From positions 1 to 32,162 of IMG/VR virus record IMGVR_UViG_3300017992_000059: a stretch of DNA of 32,162 nucleotides, one strand, 5' to 3'. Position numbers and translations under genes: made by a program. The notes under the pieces were generated by a model. It made no database searches and was not told the origin of the DNA. It saw nothing but the letters and a program-made list of their open reading frames with translations. Numbering within the stretch: the stretch's first letter is position 1; every line of letters begins with the position of its first letter. The stretch comes from a virus. Of the stretch, positions 17,572 through 23,976 are shown in pieces.

Positions 17572-17764
17572 TACAATAACAAAAACTTATGTTTTCGAAG
17601 TAAAAGGGAAGAATACTGGCAATTCATATTGCTGGTATTTCTCCTGCGAAAACGATGAACAATTTTATTCAATGCTACTAGACAGTGGATTAGAACAAGA
17701 TACGTCTGGTAAACTGATTAAAGTTATAGATTTGGATCTGTTCAATAATATCAATGACTCATAA
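17534..17764 (+). CDS. Small protein of unknown function (up to 76 aa)
   Basis: I do not recognise this family. The frame overlaps the gp55 end by 38 nt and the next gene's start by 11 nt, so it is packed into the operon. The start could be the Met at 17534, 17540 or 17546; no clear ribosome site favours one. The protein has a likely beta-alpha layout (TKTYVFEVKGKNTGNSYCWY, then ENDEQFYSMLLDSG), with two Cys and no membrane segment. Its operon position between gp55 and gp47 suggests early expression. Confidence 0.55.
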   Translation: MKMTMLTKNIKSDTITKTYVFEVKGKNTGNSYCWYFSCENDEQFYSMLLDSGLEQDTSGKLIKVIDLDLFNNINDS

Positions 17765-18680
17765 TTTTTTAAAAAATAACAAAACTGCTATTCCTTATCA
17801 AGGCGGAGCATATGGAAGCTATGTTAAATGGGTATTATATTATCTATTAATCAATGATGAAATAATTCCACCATTTGCTTCGCATGGAACCAGTCATAAT
17901 TGGGATTATTTAAAAGATAAACATGTAGCAAAAAAACATGTTTATGTGTCGATGATTAAGAATAATCATCCTGATTATAACTGTAATTTATTTACATTGC
18001 ACCCAGTATTAGATTTTGGTGATGAATTTATTTCTAATTTAGATTTTTTATACAATGCTGTAGATTATTGCATTGTGCCTTACGCAGATAAAAATACATA
18101 TCTATTAAATGTTCATAATTATATCTATAAAGTACACAGCGAATTAAGTCTCGACGAAGGAACATTAGCTTATATAAATCGCGACGATTTATTAAACGGC
18201 TGGGGAATTTCCCACGACATTCCTATATTAGAAATTCCACCTAATATACAACGAGAATACTTTAGTTATAATATATTTGATAGCTGGGAGGCACAGTGCA
18301 ATTGGTTTGCGCCCGACCATTACAATAAACCAAACTTGAAATGGCTTTATACTTCTGATTTATTATATAATTTCGAACAAACATTTAACGACCTAGCTAA
18401 CTTTTTGAATATATCATGGGTTAGAGATATTAAGGAATTAGTACCATATCATAATATGAATCTTTCAAATCAAAGATTTTTATCACAAGATAAAATAGCA
18501 CAAAGTATATTAGATTCGATCGATAATGACACTAATATAAGTTGGGATCAAAAAGATTTAACTATATTTACAGAAGCATTTATTCAAAAATCTTTACGAG
18601 ATAAAGGAATACTGTTAAAATGCAATAACTTAGATGTTTTTCCTACATCAACAAAAGAATTAATAAAGGAATTTGAATGA
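17754..18680 (+). CDS. Sulfotransferase-like P-loop protein, probably degenerate (308 aa)
   Basis: The layout recalls small sulfotransferases. A glycine-rich loop lies near the N-terminus (YQGGAYGSYVKWVLYYLL, residues 15-32). A beta strand followed by a helix comes at residues 105-127 (YCIVPYADKNTYLLNVHNYI), where the family has its 3'-phosphate-binding R-D-P-R-D motif. The C-terminal block at 198-222 (LYTSDLLYNFEQTFNDLANF, then LNISW) resembles the family's 'Y-E-D-L ... L-x-x-F-L-G-L-x-W'. The Lys/Arg normally in the first loop and the R-D-P motif are absent, so sulfate transfer may be lost or the similarity may be only in fold. It overlaps gp47 by 4 nt (ATGA). No T4 counterpart is known to me; a host-modification role is speculative. 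Confidence 0.5.
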   Translation: MTHNFLKNNKTAIPYQGGAYGSYVKWVLYYLLINDEIIPPFASHGTSHNWDYLKDKHVAKKHVYVSMIKNNHPDYNCNLFTLHPVLDFGDEFISNLDFLYNAVDYCIVPYADKNTYLLNVHNYIYKVHSELSLDEGTLAYINRDDLLNGWGISHDIPILEIPPNIQREYFSYNIFDSWEAQCNWFAPDHYNKPNLKWLYTSDLLYNFEQTFNDLANFLNISWVRDIKELVPYHNMNLSNQRFLSQDKIAQSILDSIDNDTNISWDQKDLTIFTEAFIQKSLRDKGILLKCNNLDVFPTSTKELIKEFE

Positions 18681-19693
18681 GTAACTTATTTGAAAAAGCT
18701 GCAATGTTTACGGACATTCACTTTGGACTTAAAAATAATAGCACACAGCACTTAACCGATTGTGAGAATTTTGTGGATTGGTTTATCCAGCTTAGTAAAG
18801 ATCATGGCTGTGAAACGTGTCTTTTTTTAGGTGATTGGCATCATCACAGAGCATCAATTAATCTCCAAACTTTAAACTATTCAATAAGAAGTTTGGAGAA
18901 ATTAAATGATGCCTTTAAAAAAGTCTATTTCATACCAGGAAACCACGATCTTTACTATCGTGACAAACGTGACGTACACGGGATCGAGTGGGCGAAACAC
19001 TTACCGAATATCCATCTCGTTAACGACTGGTTTACCCAAGACCATGTTACAATCGTTCCTTGGATGGTTGGAGACGATCATAAAAAATTAAAGAAAATTA
19101 AATCAAAATATGTGTTTGGTCACTTTGAGTTACCACACTTTAAAATGAATCAAATGGTAGAGATGCCAGACCACGGTGACATCGACACAAACGATTTACA
19201 AGTCGCAGACGGTGTGTTTAGTGGTCATTTTCATATGAGACAGAGTAGAGGAAACATACATTATATCGGTAATGCCTTTCCTCATAACTTTGCCGATAAT
19301 GGAGATTCTGCTCGCGGTGCCTGTATTTTAGAATGGGGAGAACAACCAGAATTTTATGACTGGGATGAATGTCCTACTTATAAGGTAGTAAAGTTAAGTG
19401 AATTATTAGACCGAGCAGATGATATTTTACGTCCTAATATGTATGTCCGTGTTAATTTAGATATTAATATCAGTTACGAAGAGGCGAACTTTATCAAAGA
19501 AACATTTATCGAATCTCATAAACTTAGAGAAATTAGTTTATTACCAGATTCAGAAAATAAGAATTTAGATGGCGATGTAGTAGAGGCTCCTGTATTTCAT
19601 TCAGTGGATCAAATTATCACCGAACAATTGACAAACATCGAAAGTCAATCGTATAATAAACAATTACTATTAAAAATATACCAAGATTTATGA
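18677..19693 (+). CDS. gp47: Recombination nuclease subunit gp47 (SbcD/Mre11-type phosphoesterase)
   Basis: This is the nuclease partner of gp46 in DNA-end resection for recombination-dependent replication and host DNA breakdown. All calcineurin-like metallophosphoesterase motifs are present in order: FTDIHFG (D13, H15), FLGDWHHH (D53), IPGNHDLYY (N89, H90), VFGHFELPHF (H149) and FSGHFHMRQ (H184, H186). The length of 338 aa equals that of T4 gp47 (339 aa). The start overlaps the preceding stop and its own stop overlaps the gp46 start, both as ATGA, so the two subunits are probably translationally coupled in a fixed ratio. Confidence 0.95.
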   Translation: MSNLFEKAAMFTDIHFGLKNNSTQHLTDCENFVDWFIQLSKDHGCETCLFLGDWHHHRASINLQTLNYSIRSLEKLNDAFKKVYFIPGNHDLYYRDKRDVHGIEWAKHLPNIHLVNDWFTQDHVTIVPWMVGDDHKKLKKIKSKYVFGHFELPHFKMNQMVEMPDHGDIDTNDLQVADGVFSGHFHMRQSRGNIHYIGNAFPHNFADNGDSARGACILEWGEQPEFYDWDECPTYKVVKLSELLDRADDILRPNMYVRVNLDINISYEEANFIKETFIESHKLREISLLPDSENKNLDGDVVEAPVFHSVDQIITEQLTNIESQSYNKQLLLKIYQDL

Positions 19694-21537
19694 TCAATAT
19701 AAAAACACTAACGGTGAAAAATTTTATGAGTGTAGGTAATGCTACACAAGCAGTATCATTTGATAGACACGATTTAACACTTGTTCTAGGTGAAAACTTA
19801 GACTTAGGTGGTAATGGATCGCGCAATGGTACTGGTAAAACTACAATAATCAATGCCCTTTCTTATGCATTTTTTGGTATAGCACTTACTAACATTAAAC
19901 GTGATAATCTAATTAATAAAACAAACACTAAGGGTATGTTAGTGTCTGTTGAATTTGAATTAAATGGCATTGAGTATAGAATCGAACGCGGTCGCAAGCC
20001 TAATGTGTTGAAACTATTTAAGGGCGGCGAAGAAGAATTTACAGACGATGCACAAGGTGACAATCGCGAAACCCAAAAGTATATAGAAAATATTTTGGGC
20101 ATTAGTCACGATATGTTCAAACACATTATTGCATTAAACACTTACTCTGAACCATTCTTAAGCATGAGAACAAAAGATCAGCAAGCAATTATTGAACAAT
20201 TGCTCGGTATCACTATGCTTACAGAAAAAGCAGAAAAACTTAAAGAAAATTCAAAAGAAATTAAAACACGGTTACAAGAAGAAGAATTTCGCATTAAAGG
20301 TGTGCTCGAAGCTAACATGCGTGTCGAAGAGCAAATTGATAGTCTAAGGCGCAGACAAAAACTTTGGCTTAATAAACACGAAGAAAAACAAAACGAGTTA
20401 ACTTCAGCAATAGAAGCATTAATGGAAGTCGATATTGATGCAGAAATTAGGCATCACAAAGACAATGCTGATGCACGAGTGTTCTTCGACAAAACTATCA
20501 CAGAATATCTACATCAAAAGTCTATGGTGGATCAGCAGATTGCTGAACATAAATCTAAAGTAGACGAACGTAACAAATGGATTGCTGCGATTGAAAGGGA
20601 TAATAAATCTATAGAACGTCAACAACAAGGTTTAGAAAAAGACATTGAGCTTATCAAAGAACACAAGTGTCATGCTTGCGGTCAAGATCTGCATGATGAA
20701 AAGCAAGAAGAAAATAAGAAAGTAAAAGAAGAAAAACTTAAAGAGCTTGCAATGCAGTACATATCTAATACTTCGCAATTGCAGGAACATCTAGATGCAT
20801 TAAACGATCTAGGACCACCGCCTGAGTGGATTGATATTGATCATCCTAAACCTGATTATATCGAAACATTTTACGAAACCATTGATGAAGCACACGAACA
20901 TAAGAATACACTGAATACATTATCGTCTCAACTTGAAACTTTATTAAAAGAAGAAGATCCTTATGCAGAACAGATCGTTGAAATGGAACAATCTGCTATT
21001 CAAGAAGTTAATTACGATACTATTAACGAATTAAACACTATGCTAGAGCACCAGGAATTCTTGCATAAACTGTTAGTAAACAAAGATTCATTTATCCGTA
21101 AACAAATTATCGAACAGAATTTAGCGTATCTTAACAGTAGATTAACACACTATTTAGATAAGATTGGGTTACGTCATACTGTACAATTTCTTAACGATTT
21201 ATCTGTAGAAATCACAGACTTAGGTCGTGACTTAGACTTCGATAACTTATCACGTGGCGAACGTAATAGACTTATTTTAAGTTTATCATGGGCTTTCCGT
21301 GACGTGTGGGAATCATTATACACACCAATTAACTTACTATTCATTGATGAATTAATTGATAGTGGCATGGATACATTAGGTGTTGAAAATAGCATCAGTG
21401 TACTAAAACACATGAGTCGTGAACGTAGTAAAAGCGTATGGCTAGTATCTCATAAAGAGGAGCTAGTTGGGCGTGTTCACAACACAATGACCGTATATAA
21501 AGAGAACGGTTTTACAACATATAATGGTGATAACTAA
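19690..21537 (+). CDS. gp46: Recombination nuclease subunit gp46 (SbcC/Rad50-type ATPase)
   Basis: This is the ATPase of the Mre11-Rad50-like complex. Visible elements are the Walker A loop GSRNGTGKT (43-51), a long coiled coil from about 180 to 470 interrupted by the zinc hook CHAC (C327, C330), the ABC signature LSRGER (520-525), Walker B INLLFIDE (547-554) and the switch His in WLVSHKE (H588). At 615 aa it is slightly longer than T4 gp46 (560 aa). All catalytic motifs are intact, so the protein should be functional. It forms an operon with gp47, to which it is coupled by an ATGA overlap. Confidence 0.95.
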   Translation: MINIKTLTVKNFMSVGNATQAVSFDRHDLTLVLGENLDLGGNGSRNGTGKTTIINALSYAFFGIALTNIKRDNLINKTNTKGMLVSVEFELNGIEYRIERGRKPNVLKLFKGGEEEFTDDAQGDNRETQKYIENILGISHDMFKHIIALNTYSEPFLSMRTKDQQAIIEQLLGITMLTEKAEKLKENSKEIKTRLQEEEFRIKGVLEANMRVEEQIDSLRRRQKLWLNKHEEKQNELTSAIEALMEVDIDAEIRHHKDNADARVFFDKTITEYLHQKSMVDQQIAEHKSKVDERNKWIAAIERDNKSIERQQQGLEKDIELIKEHKCHACGQDLHDEKQEENKKVKEEKLKELAMQYISNTSQLQEHLDALNDLGPPPEWIDIDHPKPDYIETFYETIDEAHEHKNTLNTLSSQLETLLKEEDPYAEQIVEMEQSAIQEVNYDTINELNTMLEHQEFLHKLLVNKDSFIRKQIIEQNLAYLNSRLTHYLDKIGLRHTVQFLNDLSVEITDLGRDLDFDNLSRGERNRLILSLSWAFRDVWESLYTPINLLFIDELIDSGMDTLGVENSISVLKHMSRERSKSVWLVSHKEELVGRVHNTMTVYKENGFTTYNGDN

Positions 21538-21574: not shown

Positions 21575-22009
21575 ATGCAATGGACGTACCAAGGTAAATT
21601 AGTAGAATCAATACCAAACGAGTACATTGGATTTGTATATCTTATCACTAACTTAACAACCGATCAAAAATATGTCGGTAAAAAGTTAGCAAAATTTACG
21701 CGAACAAAGCCTCCGTTAAAAGGAAAGAAGCGTAAGCGTAAAACATTAGTTGAAAGTGACTGGCAAACGTATTGGGGTAGCAGCGATCGTTTAAATGCAG
21801 ATGTATTAGCATTAGGCGAAAAAAACTTCAAACGTGAAATACTTTATTACTGCACCTCAAAAGCAGAGATGAGTTATATTGAGGCTAGAGAACAATTCGA
21901 CAGACGAGTTTTAGAAACAGACGAATACTATAACGGCATTATTAATGTTAGAGTAGGCGGTTCAGAAAAACTCAGAAAGGCACTTTTAGAACATAATATT
22001 AAGGCATAA
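21575..22009 (+). CDS. GIY-YIG-like nuclease-family protein (144 aa)
   Basis: The N-terminal core GFVYLITNLTTDQKYVGKK (residues 19-37) matches the GIY-(10-11 aa)-YIG pattern with variant residues. It is followed by a Lys/Arg-rich loop (LKGKKRKRKT), WQTYWGSS, a candidate catalytic Glu in YIEAREQF (E103) and a terminal Asn-containing YYNGIINVR. Such short stand-alone proteins are common in T4-like genomes and are often called homing endonucleases (Seg-like). It has no separate DNA-recognition domain, so mobility is uncertain. It lies 37 nt after gp46, as the last gene of the plus-strand operon. Confidence 0.72.
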   Translation: MQWTYQGKLVESIPNEYIGFVYLITNLTTDQKYVGKKLAKFTRTKPPLKGKKRKRKTLVESDWQTYWGSSDRLNADVLALGEKNFKREILYYCTSKAEMSYIEAREQFDRRVLETDEYYNGIINVRVGGSEKLRKALLEHNIKA

Positions 22010-22011
22010 TT

Positions 22012-22038
22012 TAGGCACAGTATAGGCACAGTATAGGC
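22012..22038. repeat. 11-bp tandem repeat after the GIY-YIG-like gene
   Basis: TAGGCACAGTA occurs twice in direct succession (22012-22022 and 22023-22033), with a partial third copy TAGGC (22034-22038). It starts 2 nt after the stop codon. Its function is unknown. Confidence 0.75.
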
Positions 22039-22041
22039 GTT

Positions 22042-22061
22042 GGATTTTAATAAATCCTTTT
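22042..22061 (+). terminator. Weak intrinsic terminator of the gp55-gp46 operon
   Basis: GGATTT and AAATCC form a perfect 6-bp stem around a 4-nt TAAT loop, followed by TTTT. The stem is AT-rich, so termination may be partial and some transcripts could read into the non-coding region that follows. Confidence 0.45.
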
Positions 22062-22205
22062 AAAAAATAAAACTATCGAATTTGAAACACTAAGTGGATG
22101 CGGCGTGAAACCTGGAGAAGTAGCTAGTGTAACCTTAACATGGGGGTTTTAATACATGTGGTAGAACTTGCTACATATCAGTAGACAAGAAGACCAAGCT
22201 CGTGC

Positions 22206-22238
22206 GATAGCGGGGACTGTAATCACTATCCTTTACAG
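22206..22238 (+). other. Interleaved stems: candidate H-type pseudoknot
   Basis: GATAG (22206-22210) pairs with CTATC (22226-22230), while CTGTAA (22217-22222) pairs with TTACAG (22233-22238). The two helices interleave. The last strand also overlaps ACAGG (22235-22239), which can pair with CCTGT (22256-22260), so alternative folds are possible. Confidence 0.45.
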
Positions 22239-22474
22239 GACGATGATACGATATGCCTGTGAACTTTCAATGTCTTTTGTAGTTCACTAACGTGTTTGAT
22301 TACTTTTAAGTGGCAATAAAAAAGGCTAAATGATGTGGCTCTGTTAATCACAATTGCAACCACAAGTTTATAAATGCTGTATGATTAGGTGTTTATAAGC
22401 TCCCGTTAGTTTACTAAAATAATAGTATAAATTATTGAAACCATGCTAATTTACTACTATTCTAGTACAAAGTC

Positions 22475-22525
22475 TTAAGTAGGGGGTATCGGCTAACCGC
22501 CTCCGCTAAGTGAAACAATACTTAA
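22475..22525 (+). other. Long two-tier hairpin in the non-coding region
   Basis: An outer TTAAGTA/TACTTAA stem encloses GGGGG/CCUCC (one G-U pair) stacked on CGG/CCG with a CTAA loop. This is the most GC-rich structure in the region and depends on a G-U pair that works only on the plus strand. Confidence 0.6.
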
Positions 22526-22568
22526 ATCTTATATAATCATTGACTATACGAACTCGTCGAAAGTTCTT

Positions 22569-22600
22569 CATTACTTTGTCCCATTTGCGGGCAAAGTATG
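22569..22600 (+). other. 12-bp hairpin in the non-coding region
   Basis: CA, TACTTTG and CCC on the left pair with GGG, CAAAGTA and TG on the right around an ATTTGC loop, with single-base bulges at 22571 and 22579. Confidence 0.65.
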
Positions 22601-22830
22601 ACCATTAAATCTGTCGAAAGAATACTCTCTTAGTACAATTAAATATAATAAAATCAATTCTTACTTCGTTTGTTTCTATGCTTTAGGTATAGGGTTTTTA
22701 AAAATAAGATAGAGCGTAAGCGAATATCTTTGATGTCGTAGACATCACAAACACTTAGACTTTATTCATTGTTTACGATTTCGATAATAATGACTTTATC
22801 ACCTAGGAATTTTTATGAGTTAATAGTCAA

Positions 22831-22868
22831 TAAAAAACCCTAACAAGGCACTTAGTTAGGGTTCTTTA
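22831..22868. terminator. Strong bidirectional terminator between convergent units
   Basis: AACCCTAAC (22836-22844) and GTTAGGGTT (22855-22863) form a perfect 9-bp stem with a 10-nt loop. On the minus strand it is followed by TTTTTT, ending the gp26 unit; on the plus strand by CTTT, which could end the candidate RNA. Confidence 0.85.
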
Positions 22869-22924
22869 AATAGGCATTATACTTTACATGGATAAGGTAG
22901 GAGTAAAGTACAAAATTATTTATC

Positions 22925-23152
22925 TTAAAAGAATGGCAAATGTGTTTTTTTCGTTGTTTCTAAATTCTCATCGATTATCTTGTTAATAGTATCGCGTTCG
23001 TTTTTGTCTAATTGCATTGCTTGATTGTAGTTTAGTCCACCACGCATAAACCAACACATCTTTAATATATTTTCTTTTAGACTCTTAACTTCTTGTTCGT
23101 AGCTATCAACTAATTTCTCAATTTCGGAAACTTCTAACGTTAATAGCTTCAT
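22925..23152 (-). CDS. 75-aa tail-assembly protein, probably expressed as a -1 frameshift extension of gp26
   Basis: The ORF begins at the ATG overlapping the gp26 stop (ATGA). No Shine-Dalgarno sequence precedes it. The protein is helical (LEVSEIEKLVDSYEQEVKSL) with CWFMRGGLNYNQAMQLDKNE and a Lys-rich end TTKKTHLPFF. The 'W-x-x-R-G-G-x-x-(Y/F)-x-x-A-x-x-L' pattern resembles the second (T-like) part of tail-assembly chaperones, which sits beside the tape-measure gene in most long-tailed phages. Here the tape measure lies just across the divergent promoter. With the slippery site at the end of gp26, a gp26-75aa fusion is likely. Without frameshifting it could be translated by stop-start coupling. 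Confidence 0.7.
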   Translation of the reverse strand: MKLLTLEVSEIEKLVDSYEQEVKSLKENILKMCWFMRGGLNYNQAMQLDKNERDTINKIIDENLETTKKTHLPFF

Positions 23153-23161
23153 CCGAAAAAA
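23122..23161 (-). promoter_or_regulatory. Putative programmed -1 ribosomal frameshift site
   Basis: Minus-strand gp26 ends GAT TTT TTC GGA TGA. The heptamer U UUU UUC (23161 to 23155) is in the correct X-XXY-YYZ register. A -1 slip reads CGG ATG AAG, entering the 75-aa frame and avoiding the stop at 23149-23151. TTTCGGA (23158-23152) can pair perfectly with TCCGAAA (23128-23122), a 7-bp stem that overlaps the slippery site and closes around a 23-nt loop. Confidence 0.65.
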
Positions 23162-23976
23162 TCAGTCATGTTTATAGTAAATGGTTGCTCATATTTGTGA
23201 CCACATTCTTTACATTCGATCTGTAAAGGCTTGAGTTCAGCTTTTCTGCGAATACCTGTTACTTCTTCTTTTAACTTATTGAACACATTTTTATCGCAAT
23301 TAAAGATAAATTCTGCAATATGTTCTTTATCGTGTACAGTTGTGTCTGGTGTTTCGATGTATTCGATTGTGTTAATAATTGCATTTAATGTGAGTTTACT
23401 AATTTTCTTAAATGCTTCACCTATTAATTTTATTTTTTCTTCTTCAGATAAATCAGCACTTACAGTATAAGCATACATTTTTTGTTCTTCGAACTGTGAT
23501 AAATTATTCTCATTGATTTCTTTGAAGTTCAATGGTTTGAACTTAAATTGTAAATCACCAATTGAAATAACTTTATTATAATCTGGAGTCTTCAACCCTT
23601 CGAGTATCAATCTTAGATCCACACCGTATCTATCAGCATTTTCACATTCTGGGCATGTAGTATCAATATCCATTTGATGCCCGGATGTTGCTAATCTAAT
23701 TGATATTAATACAGTATCCAAATCCACTGATTTTAATTCCCAGGCATTTTTTATATTTGGTACACAACTTTGTATAACATCTACAATTGATTGCCCATTG
23801 AATAAAGCGTCGGGCGTTTTATATGATATTTCATCAGACGCTGTCATTGGGAAAACTGGAAATTCAAAGTTCTCTGGTATTTCTAAGGATCCTACTGGAT
23901 AACCTTGTCCTTTAGACGGTAATGTAATATAAATTGATGGGCGTCTAAAATAATTTGATAATGGATTTGTACTCAT
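23149..23976 (-). CDS. gp26: Baseplate hub assembly protein gp26-like (T4_baseplate family)
   Basis: This 275-residue protein has the family pattern: an N-terminal YFRRPSIYITLPSKGQGYP, then EFPVFPMTASDEISYKTPDA and SCVPNIKNAWELKSVDLDTV, as in T4 gp26-type hub assembly proteins (T4 gp26 is 208 aa). Two CxxC pairs, CPEC (near residue 109) and CKEC (near 256), look like zinc ribbons. In T4, gp26 is needed for hub assembly. Here it lies head to head with the tape measure and ends in a slippery heptamer leading into the 75-aa ORF, so it may correspond to the G part of a G/GT tail-assembly chaperone. The ATG at 23976 has a GAGG ribosome site and a late promoter 25 nt upstream of it. Confidence 0.82.
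   Translation of the reverse strand: MSTNPLSNYFRRPSIYITLPSKGQGYPVGSLEIPENFEFPVFPMTASDEISYKTPDALFNGQSIVDVIQSCVPNIKNAWELKSVDLDTVLISIRLATSGHQMDIDTTCPECENADRYGVDLRLILEGLKTPDYNKVISIGDLQFKFKPLNFKEINENNLSQFEEQKMYAYTVSADLSEEEKIKLIGEAFKKISKLTLNAIINTIEYIETPDTTVHDKEHIAEFIFNCDKNVFNKLKEEVTGIRRKAELKPLQIECKECGHKYEQPFTINMTDFFG

Follow-up and report, generated by a model that had tools for sequence, protein, structure and literature searches.

What occupies the gene-free stretch at 22010-22924 of a T4-related phage genome? The window analysed here, the 32,162 nucleotides at positions 1 to 32,162 of IMG/VR virus record IMGVR_UViG_3300017992_000059, is part of such a genome and carries genes for a late sigma factor, SbcD/SbcC (gp47/gp46), and baseplate, portal and capsid proteins. 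The stretch exactly fills the space between ORF 21575-22009 on the plus strand and ORF 22925-23152 on the minus strand and is indeed, as the initial annotation had stated, the only long one without genes; its longest stop-free run in any frame is 52 codons. That annotation, made from the sequence alone, had proposed a large ornate RNA expressed from the plus strand, a proposal now supported by an Rfam match, RNA models and covariation. We consider it nearly certain that 22010-22924 holds an RNA gene.

A structured plus-strand RNA downstream of SbcC

The ORF directly upstream encodes a GIY-YIG protein that matches Pfam PF19835 (SegE_GIY-YIG; 5.5e-34, 117.5 bits against a cut-off of 25). PHROG 447 labels this protein 'NAD synthetase', a name carried by many records, whereas Pfam identifies a SegE-like endonuclease. 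A short tandem repeat, TAGGCACAGTA twice by eye, follows its stop codon directly (22012-22033). Further upstream, between the late sigma factor and SbcD, a 308-aa ORF (17754-18680) gives a sub-threshold match to the HEPN-like AbiA C-terminal domain.

The density of hairpins reported initially is partly borne out. The stretch contains 10 perfect Watson-Crick stems of at least 7 pairs (loop up to 60), but this is barely above chance: dinucleotide shuffles of 22010-22924 average 5.1 such stems, so that the initial estimate of about one was too low, and 4 of 100 shuffles reach 10. With G-U pairs allowed there is no excess (46 stems against 46.3 in shuffled sequence), and the fold of the whole region scores z = -2.83, matched by 1 of 20 shuffles. 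Stem counts and the z-score are suggestive only; the structure is firm because its pairs covary among relatives, which goes beyond stem counting.

The initial annotation could not match the RNA to any class. Its 5' part, however, is an Rfam RF01718 (Polynucleobacter-1) RNA, the sole Rfam match at cut-off within the window, scoring 39.6 bits over the full model against a gathering cut-off of 37. All 20 relatives run against Rfam, 19 viral loci and the bacterially binned contig L213, match the same model at 59.5-121.1 bits. The RF01718 model represents the 5' domain alone and ends at helix P4, whereas the 3' domain, comprising PK2, PK3, P7-P12 and the twin words discussed below, lies outside it; the alignment of relatives starts near the upstream stop codon and extends to a 3' hairpin located 278-424 nt beyond P4. 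A 2010 table gives Burkholderiales and fresh water/estuary as sources of the Polynucleobacter-1 motif (PMC2864571), and searches of the open-licence PMC literature found the RF01718 name only in that table and gave no pointer to the longer RNA, its jumbo-phage copies or the twin words.

Window positions 22104-22760 were aligned with 46 relatives. The resulting 47 sequences, made up of 45 from a non-redundant set of 47 (the divergent L139 and L140 were left out) plus the window and L213, served to test a structure drawn from locus L066 that has 97 pairs arranged in 21 helix segments. The aligned P1-P12 region spans 411-605 nt, with a median of 438. Partners can pair in 86.5% of cells, a value that none of 500 shuffles of the 3' letters reaches (72.4%, sd 0.4), and in 38.5-43.0% when the partners are slid. 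Covariation among homologues is extensive: 79 of the 97 pairs change on both sides, and the covariation score is 0.418 versus 0.176 (47 sequences). The three pseudoknots PK1-PK3 pair in 97.0, 90.0 and 98.3% of cells, respectively. P4 varies on both sides among relatives (helices 5-6), all seven pairs of PK2 (helix 11) change on both sides, and so do all seven of P12, which pairs in 97.7% of cells. Hairpin P5 (58.9%), outer P10b (39.8%) and P11 (56.9%, misaligned for the window in alignment A2) are poorly supported as drawn. RNA model R1 matches the window at 22420-22567 with an E-value of 9e-4. The stretch thus encodes a plus-strand RNA of about 20 helices and three pseudoknots that is under selection for base pairing.

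A decayed gene was also considered and is very unlikely given the compensatory pair changes and the indel lengths in the 47 sequences. Only 740 of 5,248 gap runs, from 300 random sequence pairs, are multiples of three, which speaks against coding. Stop-free runs in the relatives are longer than in the window, reaching 127 codons in one of six frames (median 68).

The strong terminator assigned to the right end of the stretch fared less well. A 9-bp stem is present (22836-22844/22855-22863), but the T-run is longer on the minus strand, and a terminator scan with a loop limit of 8 listed no site. It fits a terminator of the convergent minus-strand genes at least as well, and the RNA itself seems to end near 22747, before the stem. 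Coordinates are collected in Table 1.

Table 1. Features of the RNA locus and its flanks (window coordinates).
Feature	Position	Strand	Basis or remark
SbcD-/SbcC-like genes (T4 gp47/gp46), upstream context	18677..21537	+	
SegE-like GIY-YIG endonuclease, upstream neighbour in most loci but not all	21575..22009	+	PF19835
Structured RNA, proposed extent P1 to P12	22104..22747	+	alignment, covariation; both ends inferred
5' domain, RF01718 Polynucleobacter-1	22133..22277	+	Rfam model 1-141
P4 three-way junction, GTAATCA 22219-22225 / TGATTAC 22297-22303 around TATCC..GGACGA hairpin	22219..22303	+	read from sequence
Pseudoknot PK2, TGATTA 22382-22387 / TAATCA 22534-22539	22382..22539	+	read from sequence
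Pseudoknot PK3, GTTAG 22405-22409 / CTAAC 22493-22497	22405..22497	+	98.3% of cells paired (helix 12)
Part of PK3/P7/P8 domain, common to jumbo-phage RNA	22458..22536	+	model R2: 17.9 bits, E 1
Twin word copy 1, GTCGAAA after ACTC	22556..22562	+	
Hairpin P10 between twin words (TACTTTG / CAAAGTA)	22572..22598	+	stem search, covariation
Twin word copy 2, GTCGAAA after ATCT	22613..22619	+	
P11 with GAG..CGAA motif (AAGATA / TATCTT)	22706..22730	+	read by eye
3' hairpin P12 (TGATGTC / GACATCA)	22731..22747	+	stem search
Terminator-like stem between convergent genes	22836..22863	.	stem search; longer minus-strand T-run
75-aa ORF and baseplate-hub gene, convergent context	22925..23976	-	hub gene is phrog_150

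Distribution and genomic position

In a large clade of T4-related phages, the RNA keeps to one place, downstream of SbcC. A pattern for the RF01718 core occurs in at least 120 viral loci. Among the matches listed, besides the window and its own copy L121, 52 have the strict core, and 51 of these are the same RNA by nhmmer (the exception being L071). The sequences of the nhmmer profile include the window, which is therefore a hit by construction, while 64 loci fetched by their baseplate-hub protein without reference to the RNA lie outside the profile. The RNA is found in 44 of these 64 (E < 1e-5), or in 44 of the 51 that reach the site, a set that includes some near-duplicates such as L188-L191. 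Of the 20 remaining loci, 13 lie on contigs that stop short of the site, and three (L155, L157 and L161) have DNA in common with the RNA region of L174/L195; in the last four, which have both flanks, the RNA was not found (L151, L176, L194 and L197).

The gene order is SbcD, SbcC, usually the GIY-YIG gene, and the RNA, followed by the 75-aa ORF and the hub gene on the opposite strand. A GIY-YIG ORF lies on the same strand within 1.5 kb upstream in 86 of 97 RNA hits, a total that includes the window, L121 and L134 (99.8% identical in the gap). Four loci carry the RNA and SbcC with no GIY-YIG ORF in the locus (L019, L051, L139 and L140); in the same tally five are cut by the contig end (L087, L136, L156, L168 and L192) and two are ambiguous (L112 and L164). 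An extra ORF of about 257-272 aa lies between the GIY-YIG gene and the RNA in L016, L023, L062, L077 and L095. Three long records (G002, G004 and G005; 345, 157 and 127 kb) each hold a single copy of the RNA. A mobile element was entertained, as the layout resembles nuclease-plus-RNA units, but the locus is syntenic and nothing suggests mobility; one syntenic site, with the RNA in 44 of 51 hub loci, makes a mobile element or a guide of the GIY-YIG nuclease unlikely. The GIY-YIG gene would be a separate neighbour of the RNA, probably a selfish one.

Against 50,697 phage records, blastn returned no relatives for the window or L009, and for L066 short matches covering at most 6% of the query in the best 10 of 18 records. 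Model R1, run under stricter filters on 11 named phage records, found nothing in 10, and in Atu_ph07 gave two short matches away from the site (best E 0.08). Bacterial genomes yielded four pattern hits, one of which, L213, is this RNA by nhmmer; there, the RNA lies at L213:3100-3700, on a contig of 152,914 bases that was assigned to a Methylococcaceae genome bin but is probably a mis-binned phage. A conserved promoter before window-type RNAs, late promoter included, showed no excess (8 of 44, compared with 5.8 in mononucleotide shuffles).

Twin words and probable jumbo-phage relatives

In window-type RNAs, hairpin P10 is flanked by two copies of a 7-nt word, the first preceded by ACTC and the second by ATCT or a near variant. 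The word differs between phages, and its two copies are identical in 44 of 45 sequences, the exception being L103. On a tree built without the words, parsimony requires 24 changes for each copy alone and the same number when the pair is scored together; since the pair needs no more changes than either copy, the copies change as one. Shuffled labels need a mean of 30.4 and at the lowest 26 changes, so the tree fits the words only slightly better and tree error may inflate the value of 24. Of the 47 rows, 45 entered this analysis; L213 was omitted for its misalignment at word 1 and L021 for a gap there, and their words agree by pattern and by eye, respectively. Mutual information between the copies is 0.97, 0.72, 0.99 and 0.93 bits at the four most variable positions, against a background mean of 0.11 and a 99.9th percentile of 0.62; the next best column reaches 0.23-0.47 for those positions, and no other column of the RNA covaries with the words as closely as their twin. 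Word pairs picked by pattern are biased toward agreement; the identity, information and parsimony figures use fixed alignment columns.

The words are not palindromes, and they do not complement one another. No consistent base-pairing partner was found inside the RNA, and complements of the words are not enriched near gene starts or neighbouring genes, a second scan of two long records included. Ordinary base pairing within the RNA hardly accounts for word changes that recur in pairs and have no complementary partner.

Homologues of the hub protein occur in 62 records of the phage collection, mostly jumbo phages. An unannotated gap of 768-836 nt adjoins the hub gene and its small neighbour ORF in 121Q, GAP32, CBB, SNUABM_19 and XbC2, and the corresponding gap measures 683 nt in Munch and 364 nt in RaK2, where copies of the RNA lie elsewhere and none at the gap. 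Between the gap and SbcC lies an endonuclease VII-like or other gene, an arrangement that differs from the window's clade. The jumbo gap contains strongly conserved sequence on the strand of SbcC, which recurs at 160 places in 40 records, usually four or five per record and fewer in RaK2-like phages. In 121Q, a conserved ncRNA of about 480 nt lies at L202:6241-6726 (-), and it is also seen in L204, L205, L206, L200 and L209. An extended -10 promoter, T[AG]nTATAAT, a pattern picked after the alignment was seen, stands just upstream of 26 of 28 scorable jumbo copies versus 6 of 256 background windows. A distant homologue of the RNA in cultured jumbo phages, in several copies and mostly behind its own promoter, is well supported, if not proven. 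Further long unannotated gaps near the hub of other jumbo phages, at L198:7233-8246 (Phosso) and L203:6529-7191 (PA5oct), contain no match to model R1 or R2.

The jumbo RNA and the window-type RNA are probably distant homologues. No Rfam model reaches its cut-off at the jumbo loci, and the profile of the window's RNA family does not detect the jumbo sequence. By eye, both RNAs share the order PK3, P7, P8, word, hairpin, word and GAG..CGAA stem. We ran model R2, a covariance model of one domain built exclusively from jumbo copies (14 of 16 extracted), over 47 sources, 34 of which hold window-type RNA. Of the nine hits that R2 gave at E <= 10, six lie on the corresponding domain and strand of window-type RNA (L139 0.09, L140 0.1, L117 0.12, window 1, L188 1.2 and L049 6), where L139 and L140 are sisters and the model was built after the likeness had been noticed. 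Off the domain lie L034 (4.9), L201 (5.3) and the top-scoring hit, L203 (0.049), which falls within the hub gene. Taken one by one, the scores behind the jumbo homology are weak. The matching domain makes up about 0.3% of the searched sequence, so this agreement is hardly due to chance. In the reverse direction, model R1 did not find the jumbo copies.

The jumbo copies repeat the rule of twin identity. Letters 1, 2 and 6 of the word, the only ones that test agreement because the pattern demanded [CT][TG]TCA at both places, agree in all of 30 rows but L256; two of these rows, L244 and L251, are one copy. Copies in 121Q share CGTCAA, those in GAP32, CBB, SNUABM_19 and XbC2 have CGTCAG, RaK2 has CTTCAAG, and Munch is mixed. 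The same word is found in a Xanthomonas phage and an Erwinia phage, yet it differs among phages infecting related enterobacteria; this argues against a host RNA as partner, with the qualification that these phages are themselves related.

Possible roles and known systems

Taken together, the comparisons lead us to lean towards a conserved, trans-acting structured phage RNA gene whose words would be twin docking sites. The RNA would be made during infection, in the window's clade by read-through from the SbcC/SegE operon and in jumbo phages from its own promoter. Action in trans is probable. That the words are docking sites, presumably equivalent ones for a single partner, is an evenly balanced proposition. 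Words differ among phages of related hosts and agree among distant hosts, so the probable partner is either encoded by the phage or a further copy of the RNA itself. By analogy, a homo-oligomeric RNA is possible rather than probable, and self-assembly like that of GOLLD, ROOL or OLE would be the most likely physical form. One bolder extension appears quite unlikely: a single superfamily, from T4-related metagenomic phages to jumbo coliphages, would be joined by an identity rule instead of complementarity, under which two strands of one molecule or of neighbouring ones have to match in sequence, whether because they touch in parallel, self against self, or because each seats the same symmetric partner. 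We know of no ornate RNA that uses identity-based recognition.

Several other roles would account for parts of the data. The direct repeats could be protein-binding sites on DNA, within an origin, a packaging site or a homing-endonuclease target, and homing endonuclease genes, such as the neighbouring one, often sit beside a conserved target sequence. The changes on both sides of 79 of 97 pairs imply RNA, jumbo phages hold several copies with promoters, and no evidence was seen for the replication origin or packaging locus considered initially; a DNA-level element is extremely unlikely. The tight pairing with the GIY-YIG ORF in most hits suggested an OMEGA-like pair in which the RNA is guide or cofactor of the nuclease. 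This is very unlikely in view of the single syntenic place, the single copy in each long record and the loci with the RNA and no such gene; in 12 named phage records, nhmmer likewise found no RNA of this type next to the GIY-YIG relatives, and the words are not enriched at neighbouring genes.

A cis-acting 3' UTR of the GIY-YIG message, serving stability, termination or control of the endonuclease, would explain why, in most loci, only a short distance separates the RNA from the preceding GIY-YIG stop codon, and the lack of a conserved promoter before window-type RNA means that it could be only a 3' UTR there. Such a role is unlikely overall, as the RNA follows SbcC with no GIY-YIG gene in four loci, another ORF intervenes in the five loci named above, and the jumbo relative stands behind promoters. 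A homo-oligomeric assembly like GOLLD, ROOL or OLE, with the words as subunit contacts, is compatible with the docking-site reading and itself doubtful. The size of the RNA, its phage origin and its several pseudoknots favour it, as does the finding that Munch copies with differing words still agree within each copy, except L256. Inter-chain symmetric contacts are described for OLE (a symmetric A-A helix between chains) and for OLE and GOLLD (symmetric kissing loops) (PMC12286853). The words, by contrast, are neither self-complementary palindromes nor complements of one another.

Whatever the contact, the orphan 141-nt motif RF01718 becomes the 5' domain of a 411-605-nt phage RNA beside recombination genes, and is tied to unannotated multi-copy RNAs of cultured jumbo phages as probable distant homologues. 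It has long been asked what large phage RNAs do, a question that a laboratory phage, a structure and mutable twin words make testable here; one jumbo phage carrying the RNA copies, Sharanji, is listed with E. coli K-12 MG1655 as its host.

Among known systems, OMEGA/HEARO RNAs also have a nuclease ORF beside a structured RNA. Here, the nuclease is GIY-YIG and not HNH/RuvC, the RNA keeps one fixed locus instead of the varied sites of a mobile nuclease-plus-RNA unit, and it can be present where the nuclease is absent. GOLLD and ROOL are phage-borne RNAs of unknown function, and the initial annotation had likened the RNA to them. Comparable size and setting hold, and the RNA is large and heavily structured like GOLLD, ROOL and OLE; membership is unsupported, as neither these models nor those of HEARO and group I/II introns match at cut-off in the window, GOLLD, ROOL and OLE give no match in 21900-23200 even at E <= 1, and no tRNA gene was found in the window. 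GOLLD, ROOL and OLE are reported to assemble into RNA-only multimers (PMC12286853); for the way the window RNA might act, they offer the closest models. For the lytic phage ICP1, model R1 found nothing in the record and model R2 nothing in the stretch searched, and the gene neighbourhood is different. The ICP1 noncoding RNA of about 800 nt, described as that phage's most abundant transcript, nevertheless resembles the window RNA in arising from an ORF-less space of about 1 kb in a phage genome (PMC7567579).
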